The notes below the pieces were generated by a model. The model was not told the DNA's origin. It saw only the letters and a list, made by a program, of their open reading frames with translations, and did not search any database. 28,799 bases of DNA from a virus: positions 1 through 28,799 of the IMG/VR virus record IMGVR_UViG_3300022859_000014. One strand, written 5' to 3'. The translations under genes were made by a program, and so were the position numbers. Shown piece by piece: positions 1 to 26,618 of the stretch. The number at the start of each line of letters is the position of its first letter. Positions within the stretch are counted from its first letter, which is position 1.

Positions 1-664
1 CAATTACTTCCAAAGGAGTCTGTGGTGCGGTCGTCCCAATCCCCACATTCCCATTATCCAATACTGTAAACTTCTCTGCATCTGCAGAATCTGCCACAGA
101 GAAAGCTTTTCCAGTTCCTGTGCCACTTCCTTTTATTGAAAGTTTTGCTGATGGAGAGACTGTCCCAATCCCAACATTCCCACCACCTCTGGCAAGAAGA
201 ACATTGTCAGTAACATAATGATTGATTGATGCTGATTTTCCTGCTGAATCCATAATTAACCAACCATCAGAAGCCCCTGCTTTAATACTAGGAGAACCTG
301 ATACTCTGTCTATTAAAAGTGCATTACCTGATGCTGGTGTTATGTGAAGTTTTGCTGATGGAGAGGCTGTCCCAATCCCGACGTTGCCATTAGTACAGTT
401 CACATTGAAATATGAACCTATTTGAAAGGCTAGACCTGAACACACACCTGATGAGTAGATAGGGGAAACTATTGCACCTGATGTTGTTGTGCCTGATACT
501 GTGAGGTTGCCGAGGATGTTTATATTCTGGTCTACACCATTAACTTTAGCTGGGGTTATTACACCAGCAGTTGTTGAAGTTGCAAGCCAAGGCACAGCTG
601 TTATTGCGTGTGCTTGGAATGGGAAGAGTGCTATTGCGAGTAATATAATAAGTAGTTTGTTCAT
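1..664 (-). CDS. Secreted-type tail fibre protein with NVGIGT repeats, C-terminus beyond window
   Basis: This frame is open from the ATG at 664 to the left edge, giving 221 visible residues with no stop. The first 20 residues (MNKLLIILLAIALFPFQAHA) look like a classical Sec signal peptide: Lys at position 3, a hydrophobic core, and an AHA cleavage site. The remainder is Thr/Ser/Gly-rich beta-type sequence with three copies of NVGIGT followed by SPSAKL or APQTPL. That motif is common in phage tail fibres and bacterial surface proteins, often just before an intramolecular chaperone domain, which could lie beyond the edge. The gene starts one base after the stop of the collagen-like gene, so the two are probably translated together. 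A signal peptide on a virion protein is odd. A secreted host-surface protein is the alternative. Receptor binding is inferred from family and position only. Confidence 0.75.
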   Translation of the reverse strand, partial: MNKLLIILLAIALFPFQAHAITAVPWLATSTTAGVITPAKVNGVDQNINILGNLTVSGTTTSGAIVSPIYSSGVCSGLAFQIGSYFNVNCTNGNVGIGTASPSAKLHITPASGNALLIDRVSGSPSIKAGASDGWLIMDSAGKSASINHYVTDNVLLARGGGNVGIGTVSPSAKLSIKGSGTGTGKAFSVADSADAEKFTVLDNGNVGIGTTAPQTPLEVI

Positions 665-665
665 G

Positions 666-1355
666 TTAAATTGAAAATATGCTAAATGTCGGTGCTACGT
701 CTAAGGTAGCAACGTTTCCTGATAATGTGAATCCGTCACCATTTATAATCGTGCGGCCTTGGTCTACTATGATAACTGTTGGAGCATTTGTGAATGTGAA
801 TGTTTGATTCATGCCGTCTATTGTACCTGTTGGTATTTGAGCATTAGCAGATATACCGGAAATAACCCATGTTCCTGATGAGTCTTTTGTGACTGAAATA
901 TTTGCCCCTGCCCTTATTGGTGTTTCAATAAACCCGCCACGCTCAACTATAATCCTTTCCATTGTCTTAGGAAGATTTTTAATAAGACTAGCATCAAGCT
1001 TATCCACTTTTAAATCTTCTTCCAACTTACGTCTGATTTGTTTAGGTGTATCAGAAGAACCATCTTTACCATCACTACCGTCTTTACCGTCTGAACCGTC
1101 TCTACCATCACGACCATCTCTACCATCCTGCCCATCTTGACCCTCCTGTCCGTCTTTCCCATCTTTACCATTAATTCCATTATCCCCCTTATCACCTTTA
1201 TCACCATTTAAACCTGATTCCCCTTTTCTAACATAACCCTCAATCATATACCCTTTATCAGAAAGGTTTTTTATGATTTCCTCTTTATTAAGATTATCTG
1301 GTGATTCGTCTATAATCTTCTTTATTTCACTTTTTGTTAAAAACTTTACAGGCAT
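666..1355 (-). CDS. Collagen-like fibre protein
   Basis: A 229-residue protein with three parts. Residues 1-44 are a charged, helical N-terminus that is probably a trimerisation or attachment segment. Residues 45-101 form 19 uninterrupted Gly-X-Y triplets of the GKD, GQD, GRD and GSD type. Residues 102-229 are a beta-rich C-terminal domain. The collagen-like part contains no proline, so a triple helix would have to be held by charged Lys/Arg-Asp pairs, as proposed for bacterial and phage collagens that lack hydroxyproline. Phage collagen-like proteins are usually tail-fibre shafts, and the neighbouring genes are other fibre candidates. The start overlaps the stop of the upstream gene by one base (TAATG), suggesting coupled translation. 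A fibre role is inferred; the repeats are seen directly. Confidence 0.8.
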   Translation of the reverse strand: MPVKFLTKSEIKKIIDESPDNLNKEEIIKNLSDKGYMIEGYVRKGESGLNGDKGDKGDNGINGKDGKDGQEGQDGQDGRDGRDGRDGSDGKDGSDGKDGSSDTPKQIRRKLEEDLKVDKLDASLIKNLPKTMERIIVERGGFIETPIRAGANISVTKDSSGTWVISGISANAQIPTGTIDGMNQTFTFTNAPTVIIVDQGRTIINGDGFTLSGNVATLDVAPTFSIFSI

Positions 1356-2722
1356 TATAGTCCTAGGTTATTTAAGTAATCTTGTTCTGGTGATAATGCA
1401 TTAGGCACATTTAATGCACCTCCGACTTGTGTTGGTATATTTCTACCCTGTGTAGCAATTCCTGTTTTTAATACATCCAATCCTCCTGACAATCCCCCAC
1501 CCACAGCAGGACCAACACTTGCACCAATCGCTGTACCGAACCAAGGGTTTATCATTGAACCAAGATATGCACCCATCGCACCTGACGCTATCTTTCCAAA
1601 GAATCCTATATTGTTTTTATTCTTTGTAATATCAAGTATCTTCTTTGCGTTGATTCCGCTAGCATAGTTCTGGTTGAAAGCTCTGATGTCTTTGTTGTTT
1701 ATTTTAATACCTGCATTTTTCAAAGCTTCTGAAAGACTGTTGTATGCAATTTGTCCAACCTGTTCATTAACAGGGTCAAGCACAAGGTTACCTTGTTTAT
1801 CGTAGGACTTTTTGAAAGAAGAACGCTTAAAGTTATTTAATCTATCTACTGGTATTTCATTTGGGAACAGTTCGATTCGTGCTTTTGTTTTATCAATCTT
1901 TCTCTGTATCTGTAATAGATTAACATCATCAGCAAATAAGTCAGACGCTTTTAATTCATCTAGACCTTGGACAAGAGATTGTTTTGGAACAGTTACATCT
2001 TTACCAGCCTTTTGAAGAGTTCTTTCTATTTGTGCCTCATATCCGTCTAATATGTTCTGAGTTTTTTGAGCTCTACTTGTAGCGGTTCCCACTACCTTGT
2101 TTTCAGATAACCATTGAGAAGCATTGTTTACGCTTTCGCCCATTTTACTTGCTTGTGTTGGACTAAGTTTGAATGTACTTTTTTGAACGATATTTCTAAG
2201 AGCTGGGGATACTTTGTTTAATGCACTTACTTCATTAAGCACATTAGCTTTGCCTAAAAGACCTGTTGCTCCACTTATGATACCGAGCAAATCAGCACCG
2301 AATCCAAAAGGGTCGTTTGTAGCGGTTAGTTGTGCTTTTTCTAGTGTTCCGTATCGTTGTTTATAAAAGTCAACAACTGAATCAAAAGACTGTTCCCTTC
2401 CCTGTTGTCCTGGTATCAATTTTTGAACCGCACCAAGTCCTATTGAACCTATGCTTTTTACTGTATCTATTGGATTTGCCATCGCACCAACCAAACCCTT
2501 TCCAACATTATAAAGAGAACTTGGAACATTACCTAGAGACTTTAAACCAGCCTGTGCTGGATTCTCTTGTCCTGTTGCAGGAAATGTTGGAGCATTTTGT
2601 TGCTGTGATATTTGTGCATCACTTGGACCCTGAGGAACATTACCTTGCTCAAAAGAAACTATCTGTTCTACAGATAACCCTTTACTATAAAGCTCGTTGA
2701 ATTGTTCCTGTGTTAATGCCAT
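1355..2722 (-). CDS. Virion protein of unknown function, possible ejection protein
   Basis: A 455-residue protein that I cannot assign to a family. The N-terminus (MALTQEQFNELYSKGLS) is helical, followed by a Pro/Gln-rich linker. The middle is long amphipathic helix with many Lys, Asn and Gln residues. Around residues 375-420 there is a Gly/Ala-rich hydrophobic stretch (GAMGAYLGSMINPWFGTAIG and on), which resembles a glycine-zipper or membrane-inserting hairpin. It sits between the 700-residue internal-protein-like gene and the fibre genes, with a one-base gap upstream. A membrane-active segment in a virion protein next to a putative ejection protein fits a role in passing DNA through the host envelope, but that is inference from composition and position. 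Confidence 0.6.
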   Translation of the reverse strand: MALTQEQFNELYSKGLSVEQIVSFEQGNVPQGPSDAQISQQQNAPTFPATGQENPAQAGLKSLGNVPSSLYNVGKGLVGAMANPIDTVKSIGSIGLGAVQKLIPGQQGREQSFDSVVDFYKQRYGTLEKAQLTATNDPFGFGADLLGIISGATGLLGKANVLNEVSALNKVSPALRNIVQKSTFKLSPTQASKMGESVNNASQWLSENKVVGTATSRAQKTQNILDGYEAQIERTLQKAGKDVTVPKQSLVQGLDELKASDLFADDVNLLQIQRKIDKTKARIELFPNEIPVDRLNNFKRSSFKKSYDKQGNLVLDPVNEQVGQIAYNSLSEALKNAGIKINNKDIRAFNQNYASGINAKKILDITKNKNNIGFFGKIASGAMGAYLGSMINPWFGTAIGASVGPAVGGGLSGGLDVLKTGIATQGRNIPTQVGGALNVPNALSPEQDYLNNLGL

Positions 2723-2723: not shown

Positions 2724-4826
2724 TTATTTTGCTATCATCTGCTGATAAAGTGCATACGCTTGTGCTTGGTCCATTCCTTGATTTTGGTTTGTTGGGGTTA
2801 CTTGTATCTGTTGTGAGGTTGAAGAAGTATCTCTTATCACATAAGAACTTGGAATACCAAAGGCTGCAGCTCTTTCTGAATATGTCTTATTTGTTGATTC
2901 TTGTTGTTGTTTTGCTGAATTAAATAGTGCTGTAGACCTATTAACAAAGTCATCTCTTTGTGTTTGAGATAATCTTTCTCCTGTCCTTACACTATTATAT
3001 TTAGCTCTAACTATATCTGATATACTTCCAGAGTTTTGTGCTGTAGCAAATTCCCCTTCTCTAACAGTTGAACCTGGGTCAAGAACTTTCATGTAGTTGA
3101 ATATCAAAGCTAGGTCTCCCGCTGCTGATGGGTTTTTTGCCGATGCAATTACTCTATTGTAAGCATCTCTTTGTGCAAAGTAGCCTCCAGATGCTTTTTC
3201 AAAATCATCTGAAAGTTTGAAAGCTGCTTGCTGTTGTGCTGGGCTTAAATCACCTGTTATTGAAGCCTTGCCAACTCCAGATGTTTTCCAAATAACTTTA
3301 CCTGTATTCTTATCAATACCGCTAACATTACCCGCTGAGTCAGTTTCTGTGATGATAGATAGTTCAGGACTTTTAGATGAATCTTTTGCTTTTCTTATAA
3401 CCTCAGCAGAAACACCTGTTGCATTAGCATATTTATTTATATCTGCTTCTGTAAATGCTCCAATAGCACCCGAGTCCATAAATAGTTTAAGTTTAGACAG
3501 TTCTTGCTGTTGTGCGTTCTCATTAGCATTTTGAGAAAATTCTACGATACCAAAAGCACGATTAACGATTTTATCTTGGTCTGAAATTGATTGATTAGTT
3601 AATTCTAACTGATTCAGGAAACCTTCAAGAACGGTCTTTTGTTTCTCCTGTACTTGTTCTAGTCTTCGTGAAGCGAGAGCTTTAGGAAGGTTAGGGTTAT
3701 TTTTAATATCATCTAATATAGGAGAATAAGCTTGATTAAGAGCTTGTATATTTTTAATAACATCTAAACGAGATGTTTGTAATTCTGCAAGGTTAGTATT
3801 TTGTGCTTTGAACTCATCAAGAGCTTGACGAACTCCGAACGGGTCTCCAGAAGCTTCTGCAAAAGCAGACTGTTCTGGTGTGTCTACAATAGGATTTTGT
3901 GGTGTTGGAGATTGTGAATCTATAAGCTGTCGAGATAAAGCGAAAGCTTGGTCTATGTTTTGATTAAGTGAGGCAACATCACTAGAAGTCAAAGCCTCTG
4001 GTGTGTTGATTAGTTTATTTAAAAGCCCTTTTGTTGCCTCAAGGTTACCTACATTTATTGAACCACTTGGAACATTAACACCTAACTGTGCCTGGGGTTG
4101 TATTCCTGAAACATTAGGAAGTACAGGTGCTTGTGCCTGACTACCTGTTTGTTGTGAAATTGTTCGTATACCATTAGCTTGGTCTTGTTTTTTTGTTGCT
4201 TTATCTTGTGATGGTACTGCTGTTGTGCCAATAGGATTAAATACACCAGAGCCACCCATACTAAATGGTGTTATTCCTGATGCACCAGTTGCTGGTGTTG
4301 AAGATATTGATAGTCCCCCACCACCAAATCCACTTAAACCAGAGAAAGCTGTTTTTGGTGTAACTAACTGGTCGGCTCCAAATTCACTAGATATTTTATA
4401 TTGCTGACCGACATCTCTATTACTAACTCTTCCGTATTGGTCTGTTGCCCCTTTAATTGTAGTAGAAGGTCTGGAAACTGTATTTAAGTAATCTAGTGAT
4501 GTTTGATTTTTACTTTGAGTATATTCAGGAGTTGGTGTGAAGTACTGAGGAACAGTAGATTGATATGTTTGATTTTGTGCTGGTTGTGGAATTGTTGATT
4601 GATACTGAGGTGCTGGTGCGATTGATTGAAATTGAGTCTGACTTGATGTCGGTGCAGGTGCAGGTGCAGGTACTTGAGATTGGTAAACACTTGCGGCATT
4701 CGAAGAACCTCCACTAAAAGCATTTGATAATGTAGAACCAACATTATTAACAGTGTTATAAACACCAGAAACTGCTTTCTTTCCTAAATCCATTATTGAC
4801 GAGCCTAAGTTTGAGAAGAAGTTCAT
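2724..4826 (-). CDS. Large internal virion (ejection-like) protein
   Basis: A 700-residue protein. The first 35 residues (MNFFSNLGSSIMDLGKKAVS and on) form an amphipathic segment. Residues up to about 300 are low-complexity, rich in Pro, Gln, Ser and Thr, with a PAPAPAPTSS stretch. From about 300 the protein becomes helical. Near residues 570-600 lies a block reading NYMKVLDPGSTVREGEFATA. In my recollection, similar K-LDPGS-VRE-E blocks occur in large internal or ejection proteins of short-tailed phages. I therefore suggest an internal virion protein released with the DNA. A tape-measure role is the alternative but seems less likely without visible tail-tube genes. A possible promoter lies just upstream, so the gene may be partly independent of the genes before it. 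Confidence 0.6.
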   Translation of the reverse strand: MNFFSNLGSSIMDLGKKAVSGVYNTVNNVGSTLSNAFSGGSSNAASVYQSQVPAPAPAPTSSQTQFQSIAPAPQYQSTIPQPAQNQTYQSTVPQYFTPTPEYTQSKNQTSLDYLNTVSRPSTTIKGATDQYGRVSNRDVGQQYKISSEFGADQLVTPKTAFSGLSGFGGGGLSISSTPATGASGITPFSMGGSGVFNPIGTTAVPSQDKATKKQDQANGIRTISQQTGSQAQAPVLPNVSGIQPQAQLGVNVPSGSINVGNLEATKGLLNKLINTPEALTSSDVASLNQNIDQAFALSRQLIDSQSPTPQNPIVDTPEQSAFAEASGDPFGVRQALDEFKAQNTNLAELQTSRLDVIKNIQALNQAYSPILDDIKNNPNLPKALASRRLEQVQEKQKTVLEGFLNQLELTNQSISDQDKIVNRAFGIVEFSQNANENAQQQELSKLKLFMDSGAIGAFTEADINKYANATGVSAEVIRKAKDSSKSPELSIITETDSAGNVSGIDKNTGKVIWKTSGVGKASITGDLSPAQQQAAFKLSDDFEKASGGYFAQRDAYNRVIASAKNPSAAGDLALIFNYMKVLDPGSTVREGEFATAQNSGSISDIVRAKYNSVRTGERLSQTQRDDFVNRSTALFNSAKQQQESTNKTYSERAAAFGIPSSYVIRDTSSTSQQIQVTPTNQNQGMDQAQAYALYQQMIAK

Positions 4827-7581: not shown

Positions 7582-8304
7582 TTATACTCCCATCATTGAT
7601 AGTGTTCCACCTTTAACAAGTGAAGGGAATGGATATTGCAGTCCCATACCTCCATTGTAGAGTTCAGTAACTTCTCCTGAAGTAAGCTCTCTTGACCACA
7701 CTCCAACCTCATCTAACATACCGTCTAGGTCAAATGTAGACCCGTCTCTGTTACCTACTTGGAAGTTTTTTGTACTTTGAATTGATGATGAAAGAGAATC
7801 TGAAGATGTACTTTTAGAAACAGGTGAGCCATTTATGTATAGTGTGAACCCTGCAACATTCGAGGCAGTAGATTTTGTTAATACAATATGAACCCAAGTG
7901 TCTACACTATAAACAGGACTGCTACTGTCGAAAGATAGTACATTTGAACTCCCCGACCAGTCTATTCTTAGTTTTCCTGTATCTAATGTATACATTGAAT
8001 ATCCTGCAAAGTTAGGAGAACCTGTACCATTTTGATGTGTGACAATCATTCCATTCTGAGAAAGAGAGTTTTTCTTCATCCACACAGAAAATGAACAAGC
8101 GTCAGTTCTTTCAAAATTGAAGTTGTTGTATGCTACAGCCAATCTATCTGCTGATGAAGTAAAAACACCTCCATTACTTATTTTTCCTGTAGTATATGTA
8201 ACGTTAGAATTGGTAATAGTATTACCATTACCAGTGGCGTCACTCGCATTTCCACTGCTTTCGTCTAGTTTCCAGTATGCGACTATGTTATCTGTTAGTG
8301 CCAT
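7582..8304 (-). CDS. LamG / concanavalin A-like lectin-domain virion protein
   Basis: A 240-residue protein that is nearly all one laminin-G-like jelly-roll domain. Recognisable stretches are the opening IVAYWKLDESSGNASDATGN, the central FSVWMKK, the WVHIVLTKS strand, FTLYINGSPVS, and the closing FDLDGMLDEVGVWSRELTSG followed by EVTELYNGG. These are the usual landmarks of the family, which binds carbohydrates. The length fits a single domain with a short tail ending SLSMMGV-like. In phage genomes such domains sit on fibres, capsid decorations or adhesins. The sugar bound cannot be predicted. It lies between two virion genes with gaps of two and six bases. Confidence 0.8.
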   Translation of the reverse strand: MALTDNIVAYWKLDESSGNASDATGNGNTITNSNVTYTTGKISNGGVFTSSADRLAVAYNNFNFERTDACSFSVWMKKNSLSQNGMIVTHQNGTGSPNFAGYSMYTLDTGKLRIDWSGSSNVLSFDSSSPVYSVDTWVHIVLTKSTASNVAGFTLYINGSPVSKSTSSDSLSSSIQSTKNFQVGNRDGSTFDLDGMLDEVGVWSRELTSGEVTELYNGGMGLQYPFPSLVKGGTLSMMGV

Positions 8305-9896: not shown

Positions 9897-10085
9897 TTAT
9901 GGAAGCTCATGGCTCTCTATTGAGATAATTTTATCACTTATATTACAATTAGTCAAAGAGAATGTATTTATCATTTTACATTTACACTTGACCTCTATTG
10001 TTCCAGATACCTTGCCAACAGATATAAACTGTTTCTTTCCGCAAGCAAAACATCTGAATGATTTTCTTATATCTTGTTGAACCAT
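9897..10085 (-). CDS. Com-like zinc-finger protein
   Basis: A 62-residue protein with one predicted zinc knuckle: Cys12-x2-Cys15 (RCFACGKKQFI) and, after a Gly/Thr-Glu linker, Cys34-x-Cys36 (EVKCKCKMINTF). The arrangement resembles the Mu Com family, small zinc-finger proteins that bind the start of the mom mRNA and release its translation. In Com-type proteins the second pair is usually C-x2-C, so the C-x-C pair here is a deviation. The start lies inside the end of the dehydrogenase gene (19-bp overlap). Com normally sits next to the gene it controls, so a translational role on a neighbour is possible but unproven. Confidence 0.6.
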   Translation of the reverse strand: MVQQDIRKSFRCFACGKKQFISVGKVSGTIEVKCKCKMINTFSLTNCNISDKIISIESHELP

Positions 10086-10750
10086 TTTATAAGTGTTGAT
10101 GGAATACTTTTAAATAAACGAGCATTAGGTACTACACAATGCCCACCTATTTTACCCTCCACATATTTCAAATAAGGTCTCATAACTTCATCACGCTTTA
10201 ATTTCCTGTAGCCCTCATTATAGGTCTTGTTTGCATCTGTATAGACAAGGTCAAAATCAGCATCATTCTCATCACACCACTTTTTCATATATTTGTTGAG
10301 TAAAATCATAACCCCGTACTGTGTTGTATCCCACAATTTAAGAGCTTCTGTTGTACGGGCGAATTGAGTAACAACTGTTTTTATACCATGAGCTTCAAAT
10401 AGCTTAGATGCTTTTCTTGCTCCTTTACCACCGAAATACTTTGTAAATGTTTTGATTCCTTTATCTATATTAGGGTGAACTCCACGAACAGGAGAATGAA
10501 CTACACCAAGTGAATCACAAGTTCCAACTGGAACAGTAGAATGTACGATAGTTAATTTTGTATCCCAAAGGTCCTCATACATCTCAACATCTTGAATGAA
10601 TGTGTCTGAATAGGGAAAACAGATGTGCATTACATCGTAACTGTACTCTACTCTGTCAGAAGTCTCACCATGTACATCATAGTAGTCTCCTTTTATTACT
10701 TTATGTAATCCCCGACCTATTTCTCCAAAACCTACAATTATTTGTTTCAT
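10067..10750 (-). CDS. Shortened nucleotide-sugar dehydrogenase (UDP-glucose/ManNAc dehydrogenase family)
   Basis: A 227-residue protein with the landmarks of nucleotide-sugar 6-dehydrogenases, which oxidise the C6 alcohol of an NDP-sugar to a carboxylate using NAD. The Rossmann motif VGFGEIGRG is at 6-14, STVPVGT at 71-77, a Lys in EALKLW at about 138, and the catalytic-cysteine loop GGHC at 202-205 (Cys205). Family members are usually about 390-450 residues. Here the protein ends about 20 residues after the catalytic cysteine, so the C-terminal sugar-nucleotide-binding domain is missing. It may be a specialised minimal form or may have lost full activity. It overlaps the aminotransferase upstream by four bases (ATGA) and closes the sugar cassette. 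Confidence 0.7.
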   Translation of the reverse strand: MKQIIVGFGEIGRGLHKVIKGDYYDVHGETSDRVEYSYDVMHICFPYSDTFIQDVEMYEDLWDTKLTIVHSTVPVGTCDSLGVVHSPVRGVHPNIDKGIKTFTKYFGGKGARKASKLFEAHGIKTVVTQFARTTEALKLWDTTQYGVMILLNKYMKKWCDENDADFDLVYTDANKTYNEGYRKLKRDEVMRPYLKYVEGKIGGHCVVPNARLFKSIPSTLIKWFNKI

Positions 10751-11616
10751 ATTTTTATATAGTTACCTTTCTTTGAATAATAAAGTGCTTTAGGTGATTT
10801 ACATTTACCACCAAACATAGGGAAGCTCGATAAAGGTTTAAAGAAAGGTCTAGTATCTTCTCCTTTGATTTTATTTAAACTATCAAAGACCCAAACAACA
10901 TCTCTTTCTGGCATTGTTTCCCCGTACTTTTTAATATAAAGAGATTCCATCTTTCTTCTTCTTTTAATCTCCTTATCTACACGAGCCAAAGATTTAATCG
11001 CTAGTTTTGCTTGCGATTCTGGCATCCTGTAGTTATATCCTATATGTGAATGAAAATAGTTATGCTTTTTATTGAAACACATATTCTTATAGTAATTCAT
11101 TAGCTCAGAATACTTTTTACTGTTTGTTGTACATACACCGCCCTCCTCAGCGTTTATTATTTTGTTTTGGTATAAGGAGAAACAAGTTATATCAGCTTTT
11201 GAATTAAATACAGCACCATGAGCTTCAGAAGCATCTTCTATAACCTTGAGTTTATATTTGCTGGCAATCCTCATAATTTCTTTCATATTACAAAGCCTTC
11301 CATAAATATGAACAGCCATAATGGCTTTTGTTTTCCCTGTTATCTTTTTCTCTAACAAAGATACATCCATGTTTAAAGTGTCATCACAATCTACAAAAAC
11401 AGGTTTAGCTCCTGTATATGCTATAGCGAATCCACACGCAGCCATTGTAAAGTCTGGAACAATTACCTCATCACCTTTTTTAATATCAAGAGCAAGTAAA
11501 GCTAAATGAAGTGCTGAAGTTCCAGTGTTACAACTAACAGCATATTTATGCTGTACATACTGAGAGAACTTTGATTCAAACTCTTTATATTTTGTAGCAC
11601 CAGCCATTTTTTTCAT
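10747..11616 (-). CDS. DegT/DnrJ/EryC1/StrS-type sugar aminotransferase, short form
   Basis: A 289-residue PLP enzyme of the sugar-aminotransferase family, which transfers an amino group to a keto-sugar nucleotide. Seen are the PLP phosphate-binding NTGTSALHLAL at 30-40, HIYG at 103-106, EDASEAHGA at 127-135 with the Asp expected to contact the pyridine nitrogen, and the Schiff-base Lys152 in SLYQNKIINAEEGG. The usual length is 360-400 residues, so the C-terminal part is about 80-100 residues short. Its partner is likely the dehydratase/epimerase encoded just upstream, since a 4,6-dehydratase plus this aminotransferase gives an amino-deoxy sugar. The ATG at 11616 lies inside that gene (32-bp overlap); ATG 11607 is an alternative start. 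Confidence 0.8.
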   Translation of the reverse strand: MKKMAGATKYKEFESKFSQYVQHKYAVSCNTGTSALHLALLALDIKKGDEVIVPDFTMAACGFAIAYTGAKPVFVDCDDTLNMDVSLLEKKITGKTKAIMAVHIYGRLCNMKEIMRIASKYKLKVIEDASEAHGAVFNSKADITCFSLYQNKIINAEEGGVCTTNSKKYSELMNYYKNMCFNKKHNYFHSHIGYNYRMPESQAKLAIKSLARVDKEIKRRRKMESLYIKKYGETMPERDVVWVFDSLNKIKGEDTRPFFKPLSSFPMFGGKCKSPKALYYSKKGNYIKI

Positions 11617-12559
11617 AGTCTTTAATTGTTTTTATTAAACCGTTTTCAAGTTTCATCGATGGTCTTGCTTTGATTGTTTTATAAAGCTTTGTGTTATCTG
11701 ATTGAAGATGCCATATTTCCCATGGTCTCATTCGTTTTTTATCAGGAACAACTTTAATATCTTTCCCCATCAATTTACCTATTATACTCGCTAGGTCATA
11801 CATCAATATAGTAGACTCGGAACCCATATTATATACATCTCCGAACTGTCCTTTCTCTAATAGCTCTGTTGCCATCTTTACTGCATCATTGGCATACTGA
11901 AAATCTCTTGATGAATTATTACCAAGATATATCTTTCCTTTTTTACCTTTTATATTCGAAATCTGTTCTATGATTACAGGGATAACATATTCATGTGTTT
12001 CATTTTCTCCGTAACAGTTAAATTGGCGAAGTGCGATAGCTGGTGTTTTTGCTTCTTTCCACCTTGCTTGTATAAGCGTATCTATAGCAAGCTTTGATGC
12101 TCCATAAGTTGAATGAGGGTTAGCGACATCTGTTTCTTTAATCATTCCATCTACTTTCCCGTATATTTCAGCAGACGAAACTTGTAGGATACCTTTCACT
12201 CCTGCTTCTTGTGCTGCGTTAAGGACCATTAAAGCTCCTCTAGCGTTTATATCAAATACATGAAGTGGTCTTTCAAATGAAACAGGTATATAAGGCTCAG
12301 CTGCGTAATTAAACACATACTGAATCTTGTTGTCTGTAAAAATCCTTCTTAGTGTGGACTCTGACTGTGTGATGTCGTGGTATGTAAACTTTGCTTTGTC
12401 GTGTACGAAAGACTTTTGTCCTGATATTAGATTGTCAATAACAACCACATTACATTTTCGGTCTTCTATTAGATGTTTAACAAGATGACTTCCTAGAAAT
12501 CCTGCCCCTCCAATAACTGCGACATTACTTTTATATATTTTTCTTTTAGGTTCTCCCAT
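11585..12559 (-). CDS. NDP-sugar 4,6-dehydratase/epimerase (extended SDR family)
   Basis: A 324-residue extended short-chain dehydrogenase. The NAD-binding GGAGFLG is at 17-23, VVVIDNL at 38-44, FNYAAEPY at 83-90, the active-site Ser/Glu region QVSSAEIYGKV at 126-136, and the catalytic Tyr152/Lys156 in STYGASK. FNCYGENE and SRDFQYANDA follow as in NDP-sugar dehydratases and epimerases. A glutamate after the active-site serines is typical of the 4,6-dehydratases rather than simple epimerases, so a 4-keto-6-deoxy product is likely, which would feed the aminotransferase downstream. The start is embedded 67 bp inside the end of the glycosyltransferase gene, an unusually long overlap; no later start preserves the NAD motif. 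Confidence 0.85.
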   Translation of the reverse strand: MGEPKRKIYKSNVAVIGGAGFLGSHLVKHLIEDRKCNVVVIDNLISGQKSFVHDKAKFTYHDITQSESTLRRIFTDNKIQYVFNYAAEPYIPVSFERPLHVFDINARGALMVLNAAQEAGVKGILQVSSAEIYGKVDGMIKETDVANPHSTYGASKLAIDTLIQARWKEAKTPAIALRQFNCYGENETHEYVIPVIIEQISNIKGKKGKIYLGNNSSRDFQYANDAVKMATELLEKGQFGDVYNMGSESTILMYDLASIIGKLMGKDIKVVPDKKRMRPWEIWHLQSDNTKLYKTIKARPSMKLENGLIKTIKDYEKNGWCYKI

Positions 12560-13467
12560 GAATTATATTGGTTAAATAATTGACCCTGTTGTGAGTATGC
12601 TCTTATATCTCTATTGTACCACTCATCAATCTTCTTGGCTATATCTGTTGGTTTATAAATAGCAGAATCAAACGAAACAGCTAGTCTTTCTTTCTTGTAC
12701 GAATCAACTTTTATTAAAGGTTCTTTCGGTAGCCATGTATTTATGGGATAACGGTCTCCAGCCATAACAAGCATTCCACTGGCAAAAGCTTCCTGCAAGG
12801 GAAGTGATAAACCATTAAACTTCTCGGGAAAAATAAATACATCACCCTCATCCCATATATCATTAAAAGTACCTATACGATATTCAATCCTATTGTCTTT
12901 AATCTCTTTTATTGGAACTTGGCTTCTTATGATTAGTTTAATAGGGCTTTTAACATACTTCATAGACTCTAGTAACTCCTTTGTCCCGTTTCTACCACCA
13001 AGACCACCATTACCCGCATTATGAACAAAGGTTATAGCCTTTTCTCTTAGTTTCCATTTAACATCAACAGGAACATTCAACCTCTCCCCTACCCTATCGT
13101 AGTAGTCATAATCTAGCTCGGATGGGCTTAAAATAAGGTCAGGGGAGTAGGGGAGGGGAGAGCGAGTACATTCATACATTGGCATGAGTATTGTCTTTAT
13201 TCCTTTCTCTCTGGCTCTAACAATAAGCTTCCAGTTAAACACTTCTTCGAAGAAGAACAGTACATCACATTCCAATAGACTATCAATGTTTATTAACCTG
13301 TCAGGATACCATTCATAATGATTGGTCCTAGAACTATGAGGGTGAACATACACATCAGTTATGATTCCATTGTCATAAAAAGACTTAGCTAGATAACCAA
13401 GACCTTGCTCTGTAGCTAATACGATTGAGCCAACTTTAAATGATTTCAAATGGTTCCGGGTCTTCAT
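12493..13467 (-). CDS. Glycosyltransferase, GT-B fold (GT4-like)
   Basis: A 324-residue protein with two Rossmann-like halves. The N-terminal half (residues 1-140) binds the acceptor. The C-terminal half starts at KAITFVHNAGNGGLGGRNGT and carries the donor-binding block FPEKFNGLSLPLQEAFASG at 213-231, with its two glutamates and the Gly-Leu-Pro turn typical of GT4-type retaining enzymes. The protein transfers a sugar from a nucleotide donor, with the acceptor unknown. It lies between the methyltransferase (32-bp overlap) and the dehydratase (67-bp overlap), so the cassette is expressed as one unit. No membrane segment is visible, so it should act in the cytoplasm. Confidence 0.8.
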   Translation of the reverse strand: MKTRNHLKSFKVGSIVLATEQGLGYLAKSFYDNGIITDVYVHPHSSRTNHYEWYPDRLINIDSLLECDVLFFFEEVFNWKLIVRAREKGIKTILMPMYECTRSPLPYSPDLILSPSELDYDYYDRVGERLNVPVDVKWKLREKAITFVHNAGNGGLGGRNGTKELLESMKYVKSPIKLIIRSQVPIKEIKDNRIEYRIGTFNDIWDEGDVFIFPEKFNGLSLPLQEAFASGMLVMAGDRYPINTWLPKEPLIKVDSYKKERLAVSFDSAIYKPTDIAKKIDEWYNRDIRAYSQQGQLFNQYNSWENLKEKYIKVMSQLLEGQDF

Positions 13468-13909
13468 ACTCTAGAATTATTACTTTCTTTGATACTCTCT
13501 CAAGTTCTTTCTGCATTAAGTTCCATTCTGCTTCTCCTAGATTATCCATAACCATCTTTTTAATAGATACACAAAAAGACCAATCAAACTCCTCGTCTTT
13601 AAATGGTAGTTCTTTTAAATTACCGACAATAAAGTTTTTATCAGGATATGATGATTTTGCCTTAGCAATAAAATCGGGGCTGAAATCTATTCCAGTATAA
13701 TCTTCAAATAGTTCACTCCAACGACCATACCCACACCCAGCATCTAAAACTTTACCGGAGCAATTATTTAATAATATCTCTTTATGTGTTTTGTTTATCA
13801 AATCCCAATGGTCTTGCTTTGTAACATATACAGAATAATGTTCTCTACTTTTACTAGCCTCATCAATCCTCTTTTTCCAAAAATCTAATCTATCTATTGG
13901 TTTTGACAT
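13436..13909 (-). CDS. SAM-dependent class I methyltransferase
   Basis: A 157-residue protein with the class I methyltransferase core. Motif I is VLDAGCGYG at 54-62, the acidic residue that binds the SAM ribose is in YTGIDFSPDF (about 75), and the later motif reads NLKELPFKDEEFDWSFCVSI. The family is often 200 residues or more, so the C-terminal substrate-binding part is small here. Its position between two glycosyltransferases suggests it methylates the sugar or glycan made by this cassette, as O-methyl caps often do in polysaccharides. That target is inferred; a protein or nucleic-acid substrate cannot be excluded. It overlaps its upstream neighbour by 16 bp and its downstream neighbour by 32 bp. 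Confidence 0.8.
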   Translation of the reverse strand: MSKPIDRLDFWKKRIDEASKSREHYSVYVTKQDHWDLINKTHKEILLNNCSGKVLDAGCGYGRWSELFEDYTGIDFSPDFIAKAKSSYPDKNFIVGNLKELPFKDEEFDWSFCVSIKKMVMDNLGEAEWNLMQKELERVSKKVIILEYEDPEPFEII

Positions 13910-14715
13910 ATATTTAATAGTTCTTTAACCCTGTCTTTATAAGTGAACTTACTATTACATAAATTATAACCCTTTCTCCTCATAACTTCTAACTCACTAG
14001 GATTATCTAAGTAATACTGAATCTTTTGATGCAACTCCTCTGTACTCTTGTAATAAACAAGATTGTCTCCCCATTCCTCATATAAACCTCTTAAATACGG
14101 GTGAATAAGGAACCCACCAGAGCCAACCAAAAGATATACACGATTAGACCAATAATCATTATCTGAAGGGAAGTCTGGAGCTACTATTATTTTTAACGAT
14201 GCACACAGGTCATTAAGGTCATCATTATAGTAACCAAAATAATTATGTATATCGAACTTATCTTTTAGGTCTTTAAACCATTGTATTCTATCTTTATACA
14301 AAGAACCTATAAATCCAACCTCACTGCCTATCTCCTTTTTGTTACCGACAAACCCGTTACCTATACCCTGTCTTAAAACTTTACATTTTGGATATTGTTT
14401 TGCCCAAGTTCCATCTGTCATGAATATTGTATCTGTAAGAGGGTATATATCGTTAAACCATTTAATTCTTAAATCCCATATCTTGTCAAAATACCAGCAA
14501 ACCTTTTTACACTTAGCAACTTTTAGTATTTCTCTTATTTTTTTTCCTCCTTTATGGAAAAGCAACATATCGTAACTTTCAAAGTCCTCAACAAAAACAT
14601 TGTCCTCGTGTATGCGTAAAACATTATGCCCAAATGATTCTAAAGCACGCGTAATATGTCCTTCTGTATTATCTGACATTCTATTACCATGTTTTCCTAT
14701 GTATACGATTCTCAT
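13894..14715 (-). CDS. Glycosyltransferase, GT-B fold (CgeB / Glycos_transf_1_2-like)
   Basis: A 273-residue protein beginning MRIVYIGKHGNRMSDNTEGH. A first Rossmann-like half has VCWYFDKIWDLR. The second half starts at EVGFIGSLYKDR. Its C-terminal donor site reads NRVYLLVGSGGFLIHPYLRG with a following glutamate in LYEEWGDNLVYYKS, then ELHQKIQYYLDNPSELEVMR. This C-terminal pattern (a G-G-F-L/ P-Y-x2-GLE-like loop then a phosphate-binding helix) is that of the CgeB-like glycosyltransferase group. The substrate is unknown. The gene overlaps the GT-A gene by four bases and the methyltransferase by 16, fixing it in the cassette operon. Confidence 0.8.
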   Translation of the reverse strand: MRIVYIGKHGNRMSDNTEGHITRALESFGHNVLRIHEDNVFVEDFESYDMLLFHKGGKKIREILKVAKCKKVCWYFDKIWDLRIKWFNDIYPLTDTIFMTDGTWAKQYPKCKVLRQGIGNGFVGNKKEIGSEVGFIGSLYKDRIQWFKDLKDKFDIHNYFGYYNDDLNDLCASLKIIVAPDFPSDNDYWSNRVYLLVGSGGFLIHPYLRGLYEEWGDNLVYYKSTEELHQKIQYYLDNPSELEVMRRKGYNLCNSKFTYKDRVKELLNICQNQ

Positions 14716-15473
14716 TTGAGTTTTGGTGTTTTCCTAGGTTGTGTTTCTTGTGAAACGCTAAGTTTGTTTAAAAGTTCCTTAGGATTCCATTTACGCATAG
14801 TTAATTCCCTTTGCAAGTCATTATAGTACTCGCCTGCTTTAAATCTTTTGTTAGGGTCAAACTGTTGATACCTTTTAACTTTCTTTGCCCTGTCTTCTGG
14901 GTTCATTAGTCCGTAATGTAAAAGATAGTAAGGGGCGTGCCAGCCATATTTATAATATATAGGAGGTGCAAGTCCACAGTGTAAAGACTTCCTTAAAAAT
15001 TGGAGTCCATATTCTGGTAGAAACTTATAAAAGCGTATATTCCAAAATCTCTGTATCCCAACATCATGAGCAAAGTGTTTTTCGTCATTATAAAGATTAA
15101 CAACAAGGAAGTTGTACGCTATTTCGTCTGACATGGTTAATTTCTCAGCTTCTTCCCGTGTGAACTCAGGTGCGAACACCTCATCCATATCTAAAGCTAC
15201 AATCCAATCAGGATTCATTTCTCCAGCCTTAGTTAATAAGTCTGTTTTTATATCGGGCTGATATACGCCCCATTCTCGGTTGTCTTCGTAGTATTTGAAG
15301 CAATACTTGTCTAGTAGGTCTTTCTCGGCTTGTGTGGCATTACAGAGGGCAATAAGAACATCATCACAGAGTCTTTTAAACTCATCTAATGTCTTTCTCA
15401 TGTATCTTAGTGATTCACCACCACCACAGACACCTATTCCGATGATTCTAATTTCAGAAGTTCTTTGTACCAT
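14712..15473 (-). CDS. Glycosyltransferase, GT-A fold (Glyco_tranf_2_4-like)
   Basis: A 253-residue protein. The N-terminus (EIRIIGIGVCGGGESLRYM) begins a GT-A Rossmann-like fold. The metal-binding DxD-type motif is DWIVALDMDEVFAP, with Asp-Met-Asp-Glu at 95-98. The middle has NEIA-type substrate strands and WNIRFYKFLPEYGLQ, and the tail is basic. The layout resembles the Glyco_tranf_2_4 group, which often occurs in phage and polysaccharide clusters. The C-terminal WHAPYYLLHYGLMNPEDRAK block also recurs in that group. It is the first gene of the sugar cassette in the direction of transcription and starts 40 bp inside the preceding small gene. Confidence 0.75.
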   Translation of the reverse strand: MVQRTSEIRIIGIGVCGGGESLRYMRKTLDEFKRLCDDVLIALCNATQAEKDLLDKYCFKYYEDNREWGVYQPDIKTDLLTKAGEMNPDWIVALDMDEVFAPEFTREEAEKLTMSDEIAYNFLVVNLYNDEKHFAHDVGIQRFWNIRFYKFLPEYGLQFLRKSLHCGLAPPIYYKYGWHAPYYLLHYGLMNPEDRAKKVKRYQQFDPNKRFKAGEYYNDLQRELTMRKWNPKELLNKLSVSQETQPRKTPKLK

Positions 15474-15652: not shown

Positions 15653-15962
15653 TTAAATATAATTTTCTTGGTAAACGCCCGGCTTTGATAGCTTTCTTAA
15701 TCTCTCGATTAACATAATTATCAATCTGCTTTGCGACCTTTTGATTTTCAATAGTTTTGGTTCTTGAAAATTCGCCAGCATCGTAAAGGTTTTGTATCTT
15801 TTCTTTTAACTCAGGGCGGACTTTATCGGAAGTTAAAGCTTCCTCCATAACCATTTTCATTGTCGGAGTTGCTTCTTCTTCATGATAAACAGCCTTCCTT
15901 AGATTTTCTGGAACACTAGCTTGTATTTCTCTTAAAACTTTATTTACTTGTTCTTGTGTCAT
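15621..15962 (-). CDS. Small helical protein of unknown function
   Basis: A 113-residue, strongly charged protein predicted to be all helix (QEQVNKVLREIQASVPENLR, then NYVNREIKKAIKAGRLPRKL). No cysteines, no membrane segment and no known motif are seen. The start overlaps the stop of the 115-residue gene by one base (TAATG), and its end overlaps the 72-residue gene by 32 bp. It lies in a three-gene block between the capsid terminator and the sugar cassette. The function is unknown. Confidence 0.55.
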   Translation of the reverse strand: MTQEQVNKVLREIQASVPENLRKAVYHEEEATPTMKMVMEEALTSDKVRPELKEKIQNLYDAGEFSRTKTIENQKVAKQIDNYVNREIKKAIKAGRLPRKLYLNDEKTNTKED

Positions 15963-16309
15963 TAGAATTGTGATGGATTCCCACGATTATCCATTCGGTC
16001 ATGGTTCGGTGGAGGAACAACTGTTTTGCGTGCAATTTCTATTTCTTCCAACATAGCATCAGAAATTATTTTCTTTGCTCCTTCCATATCTGTCTTTGCC
16101 ACCAGATTAGCTTCAGCCACTTTGGTATTGAACTGTTTACCGTCAGATGTTCCTATTAGTCTTGGAGGTTTTTCTCCAACATAAAGACAGCGTGGATGTG
16201 CGTACTGCTTCCATGCTTCTTTATCTCCGTCTATAGGAAATATAGCACCGTCTTCCTTTTCAAAAAAATAGATTCTGCTCGAGACTCTAGGTCTTCCTTT
16301 AGGATTCAT
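15962..16309 (-). CDS. Small protein of unknown function, first gene after the capsid terminator
   Basis: A 115-residue protein beginning MNPKGRPRVSSRIYFFEKED. The N-terminal 60 residues look like beta strands around WKQYAHPRCLYVGEKPPRLI; the C-terminal part is helical and ends with a Pro/Asn-rich tail (TVVPPPNHDRMDNRGNPSQF). I do not recognise a family. It is the first gene downstream of the terminator that follows the major capsid gene, so its expression depends on read-through or on a promoter I could not identify in 16310-16330. A head-related accessory role is only suggested by position. Confidence 0.55.
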   Translation of the reverse strand: MNPKGRPRVSSRIYFFEKEDGAIFPIDGDKEAWKQYAHPRCLYVGEKPPRLIGTSDGKQFNTKVAEANLVAKTDMEGAKKIISDAMLEEIEIARKTVVPPPNHDRMDNRGNPSQF

Positions 16310-16330
16310 ATATATACATTATACATAATC

Positions 16331-16353
16331 AAAAACCACCTCGCAAGAGGTGG
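16331..16353 (-). terminator. Factor-independent terminator after the major capsid gene
   Basis: On the minus strand the RNA reads CCACCTC-TTGC-GAGGTGG followed directly by UUUUU: a perfect 7-bp stem, a 4-nt loop and a U tract. It lies 27 bp beyond the stop of the major capsid gene, where it would limit transcription into the following genes and keep the capsid message more abundant. On the plus strand the loop would be a GNRA-type GCAA, but no U tract follows there, so the orientation is leftward. Confidence 0.8.
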
Positions 16354-16379
16354 CTGTTGATAACTTTTTAAAGTTAAGA

Positions 16380-17309
16380 CTATGAACCGATGAAAGCAGA
16401 CGAACCGTTCAATAGAACAGCAGCTTCTTCTCTCAATACAGCTACACCGTAAATCATGTCTACGACTGCAAGCATACCGAGGTTGCGAAGTTGATTTTCC
16501 ATCTGAACTCGAACTCTGTTTCCGCCCTTAGTCTGAACAGCGAAGCCAAATGCACTCTTATGGAGCAAAAGGTTTCGATATGTCTGAAGACCTGAAACGA
16601 TAACAGTAGTTGTGAATACTGGAATACCATAAAGTGTTCCTTTGTAGTTCATTTTATATCCTGAAGTACTTCCGAAGTTACCAGTCATTACCATACCTTC
16701 TCCTGTTGAAGAAACAGAATACTGTTGGTAGTACTTAGTAATTGCATGAAGTTGATTCCAGAAGATATAAGGGTGAACGAAGAACGCACACTCTGATAGT
16801 CGGTATTTCAATGATTCAAGTGATTCAATCGCCTGACGGATTTCAGCATCGGCAAGAACTGTTGCAGTATCTCCGATAGTGTTAGTTGTAACACTTGACC
16901 AGAGTCCAGCAATAGCTGACTCCAATGATTCAACGAGCAAACTAACTGCTTCTCGAGCGTAAACTTCGTTTACATTGTACTTAGAAGCAATTTGCTGCAA
17001 GTCTTTATCTCCGATAATCCAAGCTACATACTCATGTGTGTTGATAGCTAGAGTTGTATCAACTGTTGCAGGTCCTGCAGTAGTGATTTCAGCTCCTTGT
17101 GTCGACTGAGTAGAAACTGTCAAAGCGTTGGTATAGAAGTCAGGTACATGAAAAATGTCTGAGCCTTCTGTAGCGAAAGATGATAGGTCAGTTACGAAGT
17201 TTGAGAGAACTGCGTCATCGAAAGTTTTTTCGTTAACAATAGTTGTCCAAGTTTCGCTAATAACTGAGGCTAAATCTGTACTTGTGAATGGGTCTGTGGT
17301 AACAGCCAT
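16380..17309 (-). CDS. Major capsid protein, HK97 fold
   Basis: A 309-residue protein with the composition and layout of a HK97-type major capsid protein. A short N-terminal arm (MAVTTDPFTSTDLASVISET) is followed by the long spine region (EVYAREAVSLLVESLESAIA). The peripheral and axial parts include SLKYRLSECAFFVHPYIFWN, YKGTLYGIPVFTTTVIV and QTKGGNRVRVQMENQLRNL, where strands like the last typically close the A-domain. There is no N-terminal protease or delta domain, so assembly would depend on the separate scaffold-like gene upstream. It is followed by a terminator. The fold is inferred from pattern and gene order (portal, scaffold, capsid), which is standard for this module. Confidence 0.85.
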   Translation of the reverse strand: MAVTTDPFTSTDLASVISETWTTIVNEKTFDDAVLSNFVTDLSSFATEGSDIFHVPDFYTNALTVSTQSTQGAEITTAGPATVDTTLAINTHEYVAWIIGDKDLQQIASKYNVNEVYAREAVSLLVESLESAIAGLWSSVTTNTIGDTATVLADAEIRQAIESLESLKYRLSECAFFVHPYIFWNQLHAITKYYQQYSVSSTGEGMVMTGNFGSTSGYKMNYKGTLYGIPVFTTTVIVSGLQTYRNLLLHKSAFGFAVQTKGGNRVRVQMENQLRNLGMLAVVDMIYGVAVLREEAAVLLNGSSAFIGS

Positions 17310-19992: not shown

Positions 19993-21441
19993 TTAATTGT
20001 AAATATATTTTACCACCTTTGTCTTTTTTTGTCTAACTTCCCTGTCAAGCATATTCCTCTCTCGAACAGTGATAGGTTGAATATTCCAGTAAGCGAGCAT
20101 CGTGGACATCAACTGGTCATCATGATAACCATTCTGAGCTCCCGCACCTTTTTTCTGAGCCTCATTAGAATAAATAAACACTTTCATTTCATCTACAGTT
20201 ACAGAATCTCTAATAACTGGGAACTTTTTATCAAACAATGTCCTCATGTGTTCAATCAAAAGATTCTTAGATGAAAAGTTTGTAGAGAATCCTAGCTTCT
20301 TGGTATTCTTTCGTTCTCTCTGGTCAAATATTTCCCTTTCGTAAATCCTATCGTAGATTTTTTTCAAATCATTTACAAACGCCTCCCCTATCCCAGTAAT
20401 CTCAGGGACAACTAAAGGCTTCTTAGATAAAGAATACATCATAGCCAACTGAACGGTCTTCTCTACCTGTACATTAGTCGGTACATAGCCTTTATAAGAC
20501 GCTACAAGCTCCCCGGTATCCTTATTGACTACTTTAATACCACATGGGTCATTAGCTCCAGTAGATGGGTCTACCCCTATCTGATACTCATTGAGCTTAG
20601 GCTCTTCCCATATCTCAATCCCATCCAATACCCTAACAGCCTTCCTAGTATGCAAATCTTGATATTTTATATGCTCCTCATCAAATACCCCACCCTCAAC
20701 CAAAGTATCAGGACTCCAAATACCATGAACATATCTATCCACATACCTCTTCGGCTTAGATAACATATCCGTAATGAAATCAGGACTAAGGTTCTCCTTA
20801 TTATCCAGCATAGAGGTTTCAATCAGCTTAGTCCCATGTCTTGGATTAACCTTAAAATAATCATAAGCCCAGAAATTGGCTGGGTTAGTAGTGAAGTTCA
20901 TTTGCTGAAAAGGTACATTCCTTCTTAGACGACCCGACAACCCATCAAACACCCTCATCTCAATCTCCTCCAACTGGTCAATAAACACAGCTCCTAAGTT
21001 CAAAGACTTAATCGCCTGTTCCGCTTTCTTAATATCCTGCCCTGCCCCAGCCTGCAAAGCATCCAGCCCAAAAAATATAATCTCGCTACCATTAGCAAAC
21101 ACAATCTTTCCAGGACCAACCTTATGAATAAAAGTACCAGAAGGAAATATATCCATAATATCCGGCAAAGTAGCCCTCTCAACATCCTGCCTACTCTTCC
21201 TCCCTAACAGGATACGATTACCAGGAAAGAATACACTCAATAAATATAACTTAATAATAAACCCAGTAGTCTTACCAGAAGCAAACCCTCCACAAACCAA
21301 AGTATATCTCTCCTTAGAATTAACGAAATCTAACTGCTTAGCATTTAACTTCACACCATTAAAATCCTCAATATCAACCTCTCCATCAAGCCATCTCTTT
21401 CCTAGTGCTTCCCATGCTGACCATTCGTTGTTGTTTGACAT
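19993..21441 (-). CDS. terL: Terminase large subunit
   Basis: A 482-residue protein with both catalytic parts of a phage packaging motor. The ATPase part has the Walker A motif GGFASGKT at 51-58, Walker B AVFIDQLEEIE at about 151-161, and the coupling motif FTTNPA at 183-188. The RNase H-type nuclease follows, with the first acidic residue in IGVDPSTG (Asp291), a second in VVPEITGIGEAF, and a third in YHDDQLMSTMLA near 453. It cuts concatemeric DNA and drives it into the head through the portal. Length is normal. It is preceded by a 153-bp gap after the small subunit and followed by an 85-bp gap before the portal, which holds no gene that I can see. Confidence 0.9.
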   Translation of the reverse strand: MSNNNEWSAWEALGKRWLDGEVDIEDFNGVKLNAKQLDFVNSKERYTLVCGGFASGKTTGFIIKLYLLSVFFPGNRILLGRKSRQDVERATLPDIMDIFPSGTFIHKVGPGKIVFANGSEIIFFGLDALQAGAGQDIKKAEQAIKSLNLGAVFIDQLEEIEMRVFDGLSGRLRRNVPFQQMNFTTNPANFWAYDYFKVNPRHGTKLIETSMLDNKENLSPDFITDMLSKPKRYVDRYVHGIWSPDTLVEGGVFDEEHIKYQDLHTRKAVRVLDGIEIWEEPKLNEYQIGVDPSTGANDPCGIKVVNKDTGELVASYKGYVPTNVQVEKTVQLAMMYSLSKKPLVVPEITGIGEAFVNDLKKIYDRIYEREIFDQRERKNTKKLGFSTNFSSKNLLIEHMRTLFDKKFPVIRDSVTVDEMKVFIYSNEAQKKGAGAQNGYHDDQLMSTMLAYWNIQPITVRERNMLDREVRQKKTKVVKYIYN

Positions 21442-24974: not shown

Positions 24975-25682
24975 ATGCTTAAAGAAATAAAAACAAAACT
25001 TCCAACACTTGCCGAGCTATACGGAAATGTTGAAGCGGTAAACAAACAGAATAAACTAAACCTTATTCTAAACGCAGAACCAAAAAAGGAATGGATTAAA
25101 CAACACCCTTTCGTTAAAAATCTAAACTACCTCCCTATCGAGCGTGTTGAGTATCTTCTAACTGTTATCTTTTCAAAATGGCGTGTTGAGGTTAAAGAAG
25201 TTAAGTTGCTCGCAAACAGTATTGTTACAACAGTGCGAGTTCATGTGAAAGACCCTTTGACAGGAGAATGGGATTATCAAGACGGAATCGGTGCTATGCC
25301 AATTCAAATATCAAAAGACGCAGGAAGTGCGATTGCTTTTGAAAAAATGAATACTTCGGCTATTCAGATTGGTGCTCCTGCTTCTGAAAGTTTCGCAATC
25401 AAAGACGCTTGTGAAAAGTTCGGGCGTATCTTCGGAAAAGATTTGAACCGAAAAGACAACATAAGCTACGACAGAATTTACGCCATGATTGACGGAGCAG
25501 AAACTTCTAACAATCCTAGTATCTCCGAAGAATTGCGAAAGGAGGTAAACGATTGTAAGAACGAAAATGAATTGAAAGCGATATGGGACAAAAACAAGGG
25601 ACTTGGAAAAGAGTTCAGTAAATTGATTGCAGACCATAAGGATTTCTTACAAAAGGTTAGACATGAAGAAGAAAATGCGTAA
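24975..25682 (+). CDS. Single-strand annealing protein (Rad52/Sak-like)
   Basis: A 235-residue protein encoded directly before a YqaJ-type exonuclease, the usual order for phage recombinase pairs. The core reads RVEYLLTVIFSKWRVEVKEV, KLLANSIVTTVRVHVKDP and WDYQDGIGAMPIQISKDAGS, then ASESFAIKDACEKFGRIFGK; the last resembles the A-x3-D-A-x-K/R-x-A-x3-FG helix of Rad52-family annealing proteins. It would coat the 3' single strand left by the exonuclease and anneal it to a complementary strand. The tail after about 180 is a charged helix. A RecT/Erf-type relative is the alternative, but the function as recombinase is well supported by context. Confidence 0.65.
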   Translation: MLKEIKTKLPTLAELYGNVEAVNKQNKLNLILNAEPKKEWIKQHPFVKNLNYLPIERVEYLLTVIFSKWRVEVKEVKLLANSIVTTVRVHVKDPLTGEWDYQDGIGAMPIQISKDAGSAIAFEKMNTSAIQIGAPASESFAIKDACEKFGRIFGKDLNRKDNISYDRIYAMIDGAETSNNPSISEELRKEVNDCKNENELKAIWDKNKGLGKEFSKLIADHKDFLQKVRHEEENA

Positions 25683-26289: not shown

Positions 26290-26291
26290 TT

Positions 26292-26615: not shown

Positions 26616-26618
26616 ACC

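Follow-up and report, generated by a model that had tools for sequence, protein, structure and literature searches.

A phage fibre gene with a predicted Sec signal peptide in a putative P22/Mx8-like virus

Tailed phages are taught to assemble wholly in the cytoplasm, and the tailspike of P22, which is signal-less, is a protein of the cytoplasm. Some bacterial groups have secreted proteins that combine NVGIGT repeats with signals. In phages of the P22/Mx8 kind, fibre genes are placed after the internal virion genes, according to the available part of PMC10386132, and that part makes no mention of signal peptide, signal sequence, secretion or periplasm. According to the available part of PMC6199706, phage DGR proteins lack the signal peptides that their bacterial counterparts carry, and this absence is counted there in favour of a phage origin. 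Tail fibres and signal peptides are each known; on the two combined, judged by titles and abstract openings, no paper on exported tail fibres was found among the matches listed.

We analysed a stretch of 28,799 nucleotides of viral DNA (IMG/VR record IMGVR_UViG_3300022859_000014, whole, called the window), which carries at its left edge the start of a fibre gene with a signal-like N-terminus. The fibre is like the NVGIGT tail fibres (PHROG 9942 and 18345) in its repeats, its family matches and its virion-gene neighbours. However, 92 of 99 sampled members of this kind, among the loci listed, have no signal even by a lax rule. Its place after internal virion proteins is likewise that of a P22-like fibre or tailspike (as described in the part of PMC10386132 at hand), whereas the P22 tailspike has no signal. 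Mx8 p64 and Mx9 p14, from two cultured Myxococcus phages, also have a signal before a fibre-type domain, and an Mx8 structural protein matches one of the window; their fibre domain is a different one, no NVGIGT repeat was seen in the p64 sequence displayed, and the p64/p14 gene adjoins a potential antirepressor gene rather than directly preceding known lysis genes. Surface-displayed bacterial DGR proteins share with the window fibre an export signal on a binding-type protein, but the window gene is phage-borne and without a lipobox.

The fibre gene and its surroundings

The features of the window used below are the following.

2..664, minus strand: 5' part (221 aa) of an NVGIGT-repeat fibre gene, an open ORF running past the window edge
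605..664, minus strand: Sec signal peptide predicted by the lax and the strict rule, MNKLLIILLAIALFPFQAHA, with the cut placed behind AHA
366..514, minus strand: shared module of 149 bases, with 97.3% DNA identity to L121 (the L002 record) and a protein match in L123
666..1355, minus strand: gene for a collagen-like fibre or adaptor with GXX repeats (Pfam Collagen, E 9.3e-10; PHROG tail fiber matches)
1355..2722, minus strand: probable second internal virion protein, by position only, a convincing family match being absent
2724..4826, minus strand: internal virion/DNA-transfer protein of P22/Mx8 type, the ejection protein (phrog_13634, E 8.5e-31)
16380..17309, minus strand: major head protein (phrog_267, E 8.7e-8)
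19993..21441, minus strand: terminase large subunit (phrog_2, E 3.4e-33; PF04466, E 6.4e-7)

The fibre ORF begins with an ATG at 664 and runs without a stop to base 2, the edge of the virus record; the first-pass annotation, which placed it at 1-664, was correct to within one base (ORF 664→2, minus strand). It was also right in calling the product a fibre-like NVGIGT-repeat protein, as three NVGIGT motifs lie within the 221 residues and the PHROG matches are to tail fibers (phrog_9942, E 1.4e-8; phrog_18345, E 1.2e-7). No Pfam or NCBIfam match was obtained with this N-terminal part, and the window fibre has no recognised virion-binding domain. The ATG stands 1 nt past the stop of the collagen-like gene, and the only alternative in-frame start in codons 1-73 is a GTG at codon 24. 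The G+C content is 42.7% in the fibre versus 37.3% in the window. Cys 75 and Cys 90 are both inside the shared module.

Over 110 aa the ejection protein is 47% identical to a virion structural protein of Mx8, and over about 100 aa it is 36.5% identical to DNA transfer proteins of the phages SEN22 and Kapi1. Because of these matches we place the window phage among the P22/Mx8-like short-tailed phages (podoviruses). Terminase, head, ejection protein and fibre all lie on one strand, as in a late or virion region. The head protein had no match among isolate phages.

Sugar-type genes are found amid the virion genes (10067-15473, minus strand). Four proteins of this block were scanned, giving a DegT aminotransferase (PF01041, E 9e-75) and an NAD epimerase (PF01370, E 2e-50), and glycosyltransferase- and methyltransferase-like ORFs were recognised by eye. 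Shine-Dalgarno sequences are scarce in the window: among 24 upstream stretches, from 38 listed genes, a piece of at least 4 bases occurs in 5 of the 24 20-mers, and most of the others are A/T-rich.

Two other records belong to the same phage: over 11.4 kb, L084 (G001) is 99.98% and L085 (G002) 99.86% identical to the window. G002 overlaps window positions 25236-28799 at 99.3% and extends about 5.46 kb beyond. Its first 198 bases encode an NVGIGT fibre C-terminus, on the terminase strand, ending GNVGIGTTTPAMKLDVYGQIRATSPTKPTCTASLRGAIQYDESDDHFYGCRTAGWAQLNN and then a stop. This end is followed by a pair of small proteins in which hydrophobic stretches were recognised by eye. Next come proteins resembling a lysin (phrog_873, E 5.4e-14) and, by eye, a holin, and then a transglycosylase of SLT type (PF01464, E 5.3e-10). 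The N-terminal part in the window and the C-terminal piece in G002 are likely to belong to a single fibre gene, its middle missing, and this gene would most likely lie between virion and lysis genes. Completion of the gene beyond the edge, as proposed earlier, would thus be achieved for the C-terminus through G002, but the middle is missing, and a pattern made from the first 30 bases of the window matched no viral contig. Pfam found no Peptidase_S74 in the window N-terminal part, in the 65-aa C-terminal piece or in the complete fibre of locus L005.

Among the window, L002, L123 and the L118 entry, three module-carrying records end within the fibre gene, and G002 begins within it, as if these ends were assembly breaks caused by variation or repeats; a DGR would be a candidate cause. 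In-frame repeats occur at 28072-28649 (plus strand), of AYEAI/NDPA type and then of GTGGAGGA type. They vary from one record of this phage to another: G002 is 24 bases shorter over the overlap, and related copies stand directly past the window end in G002.

Signal-like starts and their background frequency

The fibre N-terminus reads MNKLLIILLAIALFPFQAHAITAVPW. In its residues 1-20, MNKLLIILLAIALFPFQAHA, the third residue is Lys, and a hydrophobic core and an AHA site are present. Signals were judged by two rules of our own writing, a lax and a strict one, the strict rule demanding Ala at -1. By these rules the start has the properties of a Sec (type I) signal, namely a positive n-region, a hydrophobic core and allowed residues at -3 and -1. 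It has no lipobox with Cys at +1, residues 1-74 being Cys-free.

The lax rule is generous. It accepted all five E. coli control signals, but also 246 of 20,000 random N-termini matched to the window in composition and, when many starts were tried per ORF, 63 of 579 other ORFs (at least 150 aa, all frames, in the surveyed loci). Four of 43 genes of the window phage passed, the fibre among them; the other three (11585-12559, 12493-13467 and 14712-15473) are all within the sugar-gene stretch and resemble, by eye, nucleotide-binding starts. The strict rule accepted 110 of 50,000 random N-termini (0.22%), and the fibre alone among 27 minus-strand window genes. Its first accepted site in the fibre falls between QA and HA, two residues from the lax-rule cut. 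The Sec-type signal claimed at first sight therefore holds up against a 0.22% chance level, and the fibre appears to start with an export-type signal for which cleavage is predicted.

Frequencies of such starts were then counted on viral contigs. Of at least 120 stretches with the NVGIGT motif 80 loci were listed, and the best 80 of 123 were taken with the C-terminal piece (79 counted, the remaining one being G002 itself). These 159 loci gave 99 distinct NVGIGT ORFs with a 5' end, 29 5'-open ORFs having been dropped. Among the loci listed, seven of the 99 were lax-positive (L168, L258 twice, L281, L287, L332 and L335). The first reading, that phage fibres normally have no export signal, agrees with the 92 of 99 NVGIGT ORFs that were lax-negative. 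The positive start of L168 is codon 42 of its frame, and the two positives of L258 may be bacterial; the L258 pair was left out of the strict test, and the five ORFs submitted (L168, L281, L287, L332, L335) all passed. The motif survey alone, among the loci listed, gave 3 lax-positives of 45: the window, L002 and L168.

We rejected the idea that signals are enriched among NVGIGT ORFs, since 7/99 does not exceed the 63/579 that the lax rule accepts among other ORFs. The count therefore shows no enrichment, and weight rests on single cases only.

A search by the ejection protein gave 80 loci, many of which end soon after the ejection gene; in nine of the 80, a downstream ORF of 150 aa or more passed the lax rule. 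The large downstream ORFs of L005, L030 and L072 passed the strict rule and that of L015 failed, while L037 and L038, which are one identical protein, were outside the strict test. Of 520 ORFs with 350 aa or more across the loci examined, 18 look signal-bearing, fibres and others.

Signal-bearing fibres in other phages

Single-protein searches gave few relatives of the fibre, and L002 and L123 were recovered through its body. Their fibres start MKKYIILILIVVAMLWLIPMKGNA/QT and MKTKLTIILITVAFLIPFFSYA/QS, respectively (the slash marks the cut), and both pass the strict rule. The two signals are strong and intact but unlike each other, and stand ahead of a module (LTVSGTTTSGAIVSPIYSSGVCSGLAFQIGSYFNVNC..GNVGIGTA) that is nearly identical in the window, L002 and L123 proteins. 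Between window and L002, the 97.3% identity is confined to the 149 bases, and both flanks, signal included, have diverged. The body was therefore swapped between phages, each of which kept a signal.

The L002 fibre starts one base after a collagen-like gene, and additional in-frame starts are present in its signal region; the L123 fibre is not preceded by a collagen-like gene. When 21 proteins of the window phage were compared with 9.6 kb of the L002 record, only fibre pieces and the collagen-like gene matched, and with 6.3 kb of L123, the fibre alone. The ejection protein had no match across the whole L002 record, nor the terminase in the L123 record. By these comparisons, the L002 and L123 phages appear otherwise unlike the window phage.

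L005 was recovered via the ejection protein (60% over 144 aa). Its gene order is ejection protein, second protein, collagen-like gene, fibre, membrane protein, lysin and holin-like protein, where the membrane and holin-like proteins were called by eye and the lysin by phrog_873 (E 2.3e-14). The lysin is 47% identical to that of the window phage over 116 aa. The L005 fibre is complete (1,024 aa), of NVGIGT type (phrog_9942, E 3.4e-11) and signal-bearing, with the start MKKILSILIGILATPLLVFA/ASVF and no other in-frame start within 120 codons. In L287, a collagen-like gene is followed after 18 bases by a signal-bearing fibre of 865 aa starting MYKKIIYFLSLIALSLPLTAYC. The repeat style of L005 and L287 is one that, we assume, recalls Patescibacteria proteins. 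The available parts of two papers on Patescibacteria phages (PMC12911398, PMC13059738) had no bearing on it.

The collagen-like gene at 666..1355 was compared, with the low-complexity filter off, with the genes at the same place in L005 (28%, E 3e-8), L287 (C-terminus, 45% over 58 aa, E 2e-7) and L002 (29%, E 2e-4). These matches are weak to moderate as sequence comparisons go, and the L005 gene had no Pfam and no PHROG match.

In Mx8 and Mx9, the signal stands before a start known from ordinary fibres. Mx8 p64 starts MRYLPSAAGLAVGVLLGVIISVSTPASA/TRNSVGTYTLPGGNPVVSG, and Mx9 p14 is alike but for TRNAV: in both, the signal ends ASA and is immediately followed by TRN[SA]VGTYTLPGGNPVVSG. Signal-less relatives from a Stenotrophomonas phage (MPRNGSGTYLLPTGINPVV) and a Bradyrhizobium phage (MENATLPRQANGTYLPPANTAAVSG), both annotated hypothetical, begin at or near the p64 domain at the matching place, such that the Mx8 cut leaves almost exactly the start of a signal-less relative. 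Mx9 p14 is annotated as a putative tail fiber protein. For Mx8 p64 the PHROG matches to tail fibers are weak (best E 4e-5), and p64 has no virion-protein label, while other proteins in the Mx8 record have one. The 28-residue signal is identical in the two phages. Its 28 codons show no change at all, versus 28 synonymous and 3 other changes in codons 29-180; in the absence of silent changes, the signal therefore gives no measure of selection. Among nine cultured-phage CDS (CRP-227, CRP-901, Bylgja, S-CRES1, Mx8), Mx8 p64 alone was lax-positive.

In L072, a signal stands about 40 residues ahead of a fibre N-terminal domain, and the protein also has a Tail Collar domain (E 6e-16). The same N-terminal domain begins ORFs in L008, L017, L051, L054, L060, L082 and L248, and none of these seven has a visible signal. 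L281 starts MIKIILVALLSSTAAQA/GSYTTFLNLYKP, which looks like a common fibre start; its neighbour genes resemble, by eye, those of a long-tailed phage, and tblastn of 60 L281 residues against isolates gave no match. Together with the window, other phages, two of them cultured, appear to carry the same combination of fibre and signal.

Fate of the fibre

We propose that the window gene encodes the host-recognition fibre of a P22/Mx8-like short-tailed phage, synthesised with a cleavable Sec signal. The signal would carry the fibre across the inner membrane, with the export and cleavage step as in the established Sec pathway. Beyond the membrane the fibre would fold, perhaps forming disulfides, and the mature protein would join virions outside the cytoplasm once lysis mixes both. 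That the window protein is an exported protein of fibre type is probable. Its attachment to virions outside the cytoplasm is held more tentatively, at a little short of an even chance, and the same caution applies to late attachment of an exported fibre as our best overall explanation. The gene, its signal-like N-terminus, its virion-region neighbours and its recurrence in other phages are observed; from there we infer export, cleavage, disulfides and a place before the lysis genes. In support stand the strict-rule pass, the L002 and L123 signals, the gene order of L005 and L287, Mx8 and Mx9, and L072. On the other side weigh the incompleteness of the window gene, the lax-rule count that shows no enrichment, the signal-like starts of large ORFs that are not fibres, the missing virion label of Mx8 p64 and the additional starts in the L002 signal region.

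The first-pass annotation had set a virion fibre against an exported protein. Export, to the periplasm or the cell surface, is indeed the natural reading of the start, but the alternative was drawn too sharply, because in Mx8, Mx9 and L072 the signal precedes an ordinary-fibre domain, and a protein could be both exported and part of the virion. The same proteins bear on the next reading, a decoy that is secreted or displayed, covers receptors or neighbours and blocks re-adsorption of progeny or superinfection without ever being part of a virion. A decoy would fit the export-type signal that passes the strict rule, the absence of an S74 chaperone from the window N-terminal part, the C-terminal piece and the complete L005 protein, and the adjoining collagen-like gene, which could serve as the virion fibre. 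Yet Mx8, Mx9 and L072 proteins keep the N-terminal domains of signal-less fibres, for which a decoy has no need. We therefore favour late attachment and regard the decoy as rather unlikely, a preference that is weaker for the window fibre taken alone, which has no recognised virion-binding domain.

The gene could also be a bacterial surface protein captured by the phage, as first suggested: an adhesin taken from the host together with its signal, and active in the lysogen or the infected cell. The signal-bearing NVGIGT proteins of some bacterial groups and the G+C content of the fibre (42.7% against 37.3%) are in line with such an origin. However, no relative was found in two scans of bacterial and archaeal genome collections, which reach only close relatives, the top PHROG matches are phage tail fibres, and the fibres of L002 and L287 have a collagen-like neighbour. 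The place between virion and lysis genes, found in L005 and, by the record overlap, in the window phage, argues against a passenger gene. Capture is therefore improbable. We give a similarly low weight to an uncleaved membrane anchor, in which the hydrophobic N-terminus is retained and anchors the protein or aids contact between tail and membrane. Cleavage is not provable from sequence, and the lax and strict cuts are two residues apart; but allowed residues at -3 and -1 are present in window, L002, L123, L005, L335, L281 and Mx8, and the Mx8 cut yields nearly the exact start of a signal-less relative. Finally, contamination, misassembly or a wrong start codon mimicking a signal is very improbable, even though the window, L002 and L123 records all end within the fibre gene, as the start lies 1 nt past the upstream stop in the window and in L002, alternative starts are few (GTG24 only over 73 codons in the window, none over 120 in L005), L005 is a complete example and cultured Mx8 and Mx9 have the identical 28-residue signal.

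With signals ahead of fibre domains in several phages, some fibres would take a route other than cytoplasmic assembly, or fibre proteins would reach the envelope of the infected cell. Some phage fibres may thus pass out of the cell interior ahead of virus completion. A whole, so far unrecognised class of tailed phages that export receptor-binding fibres via Sec, let them fold and be oxidised outside and attach them at lysis, the signal having been gained repeatedly on ordinary fibre N-termini, is conceivable but doubtful. Both Mx8 and Mx9 are in culture, which makes the question accessible to bench work.

Cys pairs had been considered as proof of export and were dropped, since a signal-less fibre-like ORF of L245 has a like motif. 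At its end, this ORF (2876-4759) carries a Cys-Cys-Trp motif resembling the one in the fibre C-terminus of the window phage.

Two observations concern neighbouring proteins. A laminin-G-like protein is encoded in the virion region of the window (7582-8304, minus strand) and has a relative in L335 (34%, E 3.5e-26), which there lies downstream of the signal-bearing fibre with one ORF between. In L072, the gene at 15904-16623 adjoins that of the signal-bearing fibre, and its product too opens with a strong signal-like sequence, MIRRVLLACLAVLFLCGAALA, so the L072 phage may export two adjacent proteins.
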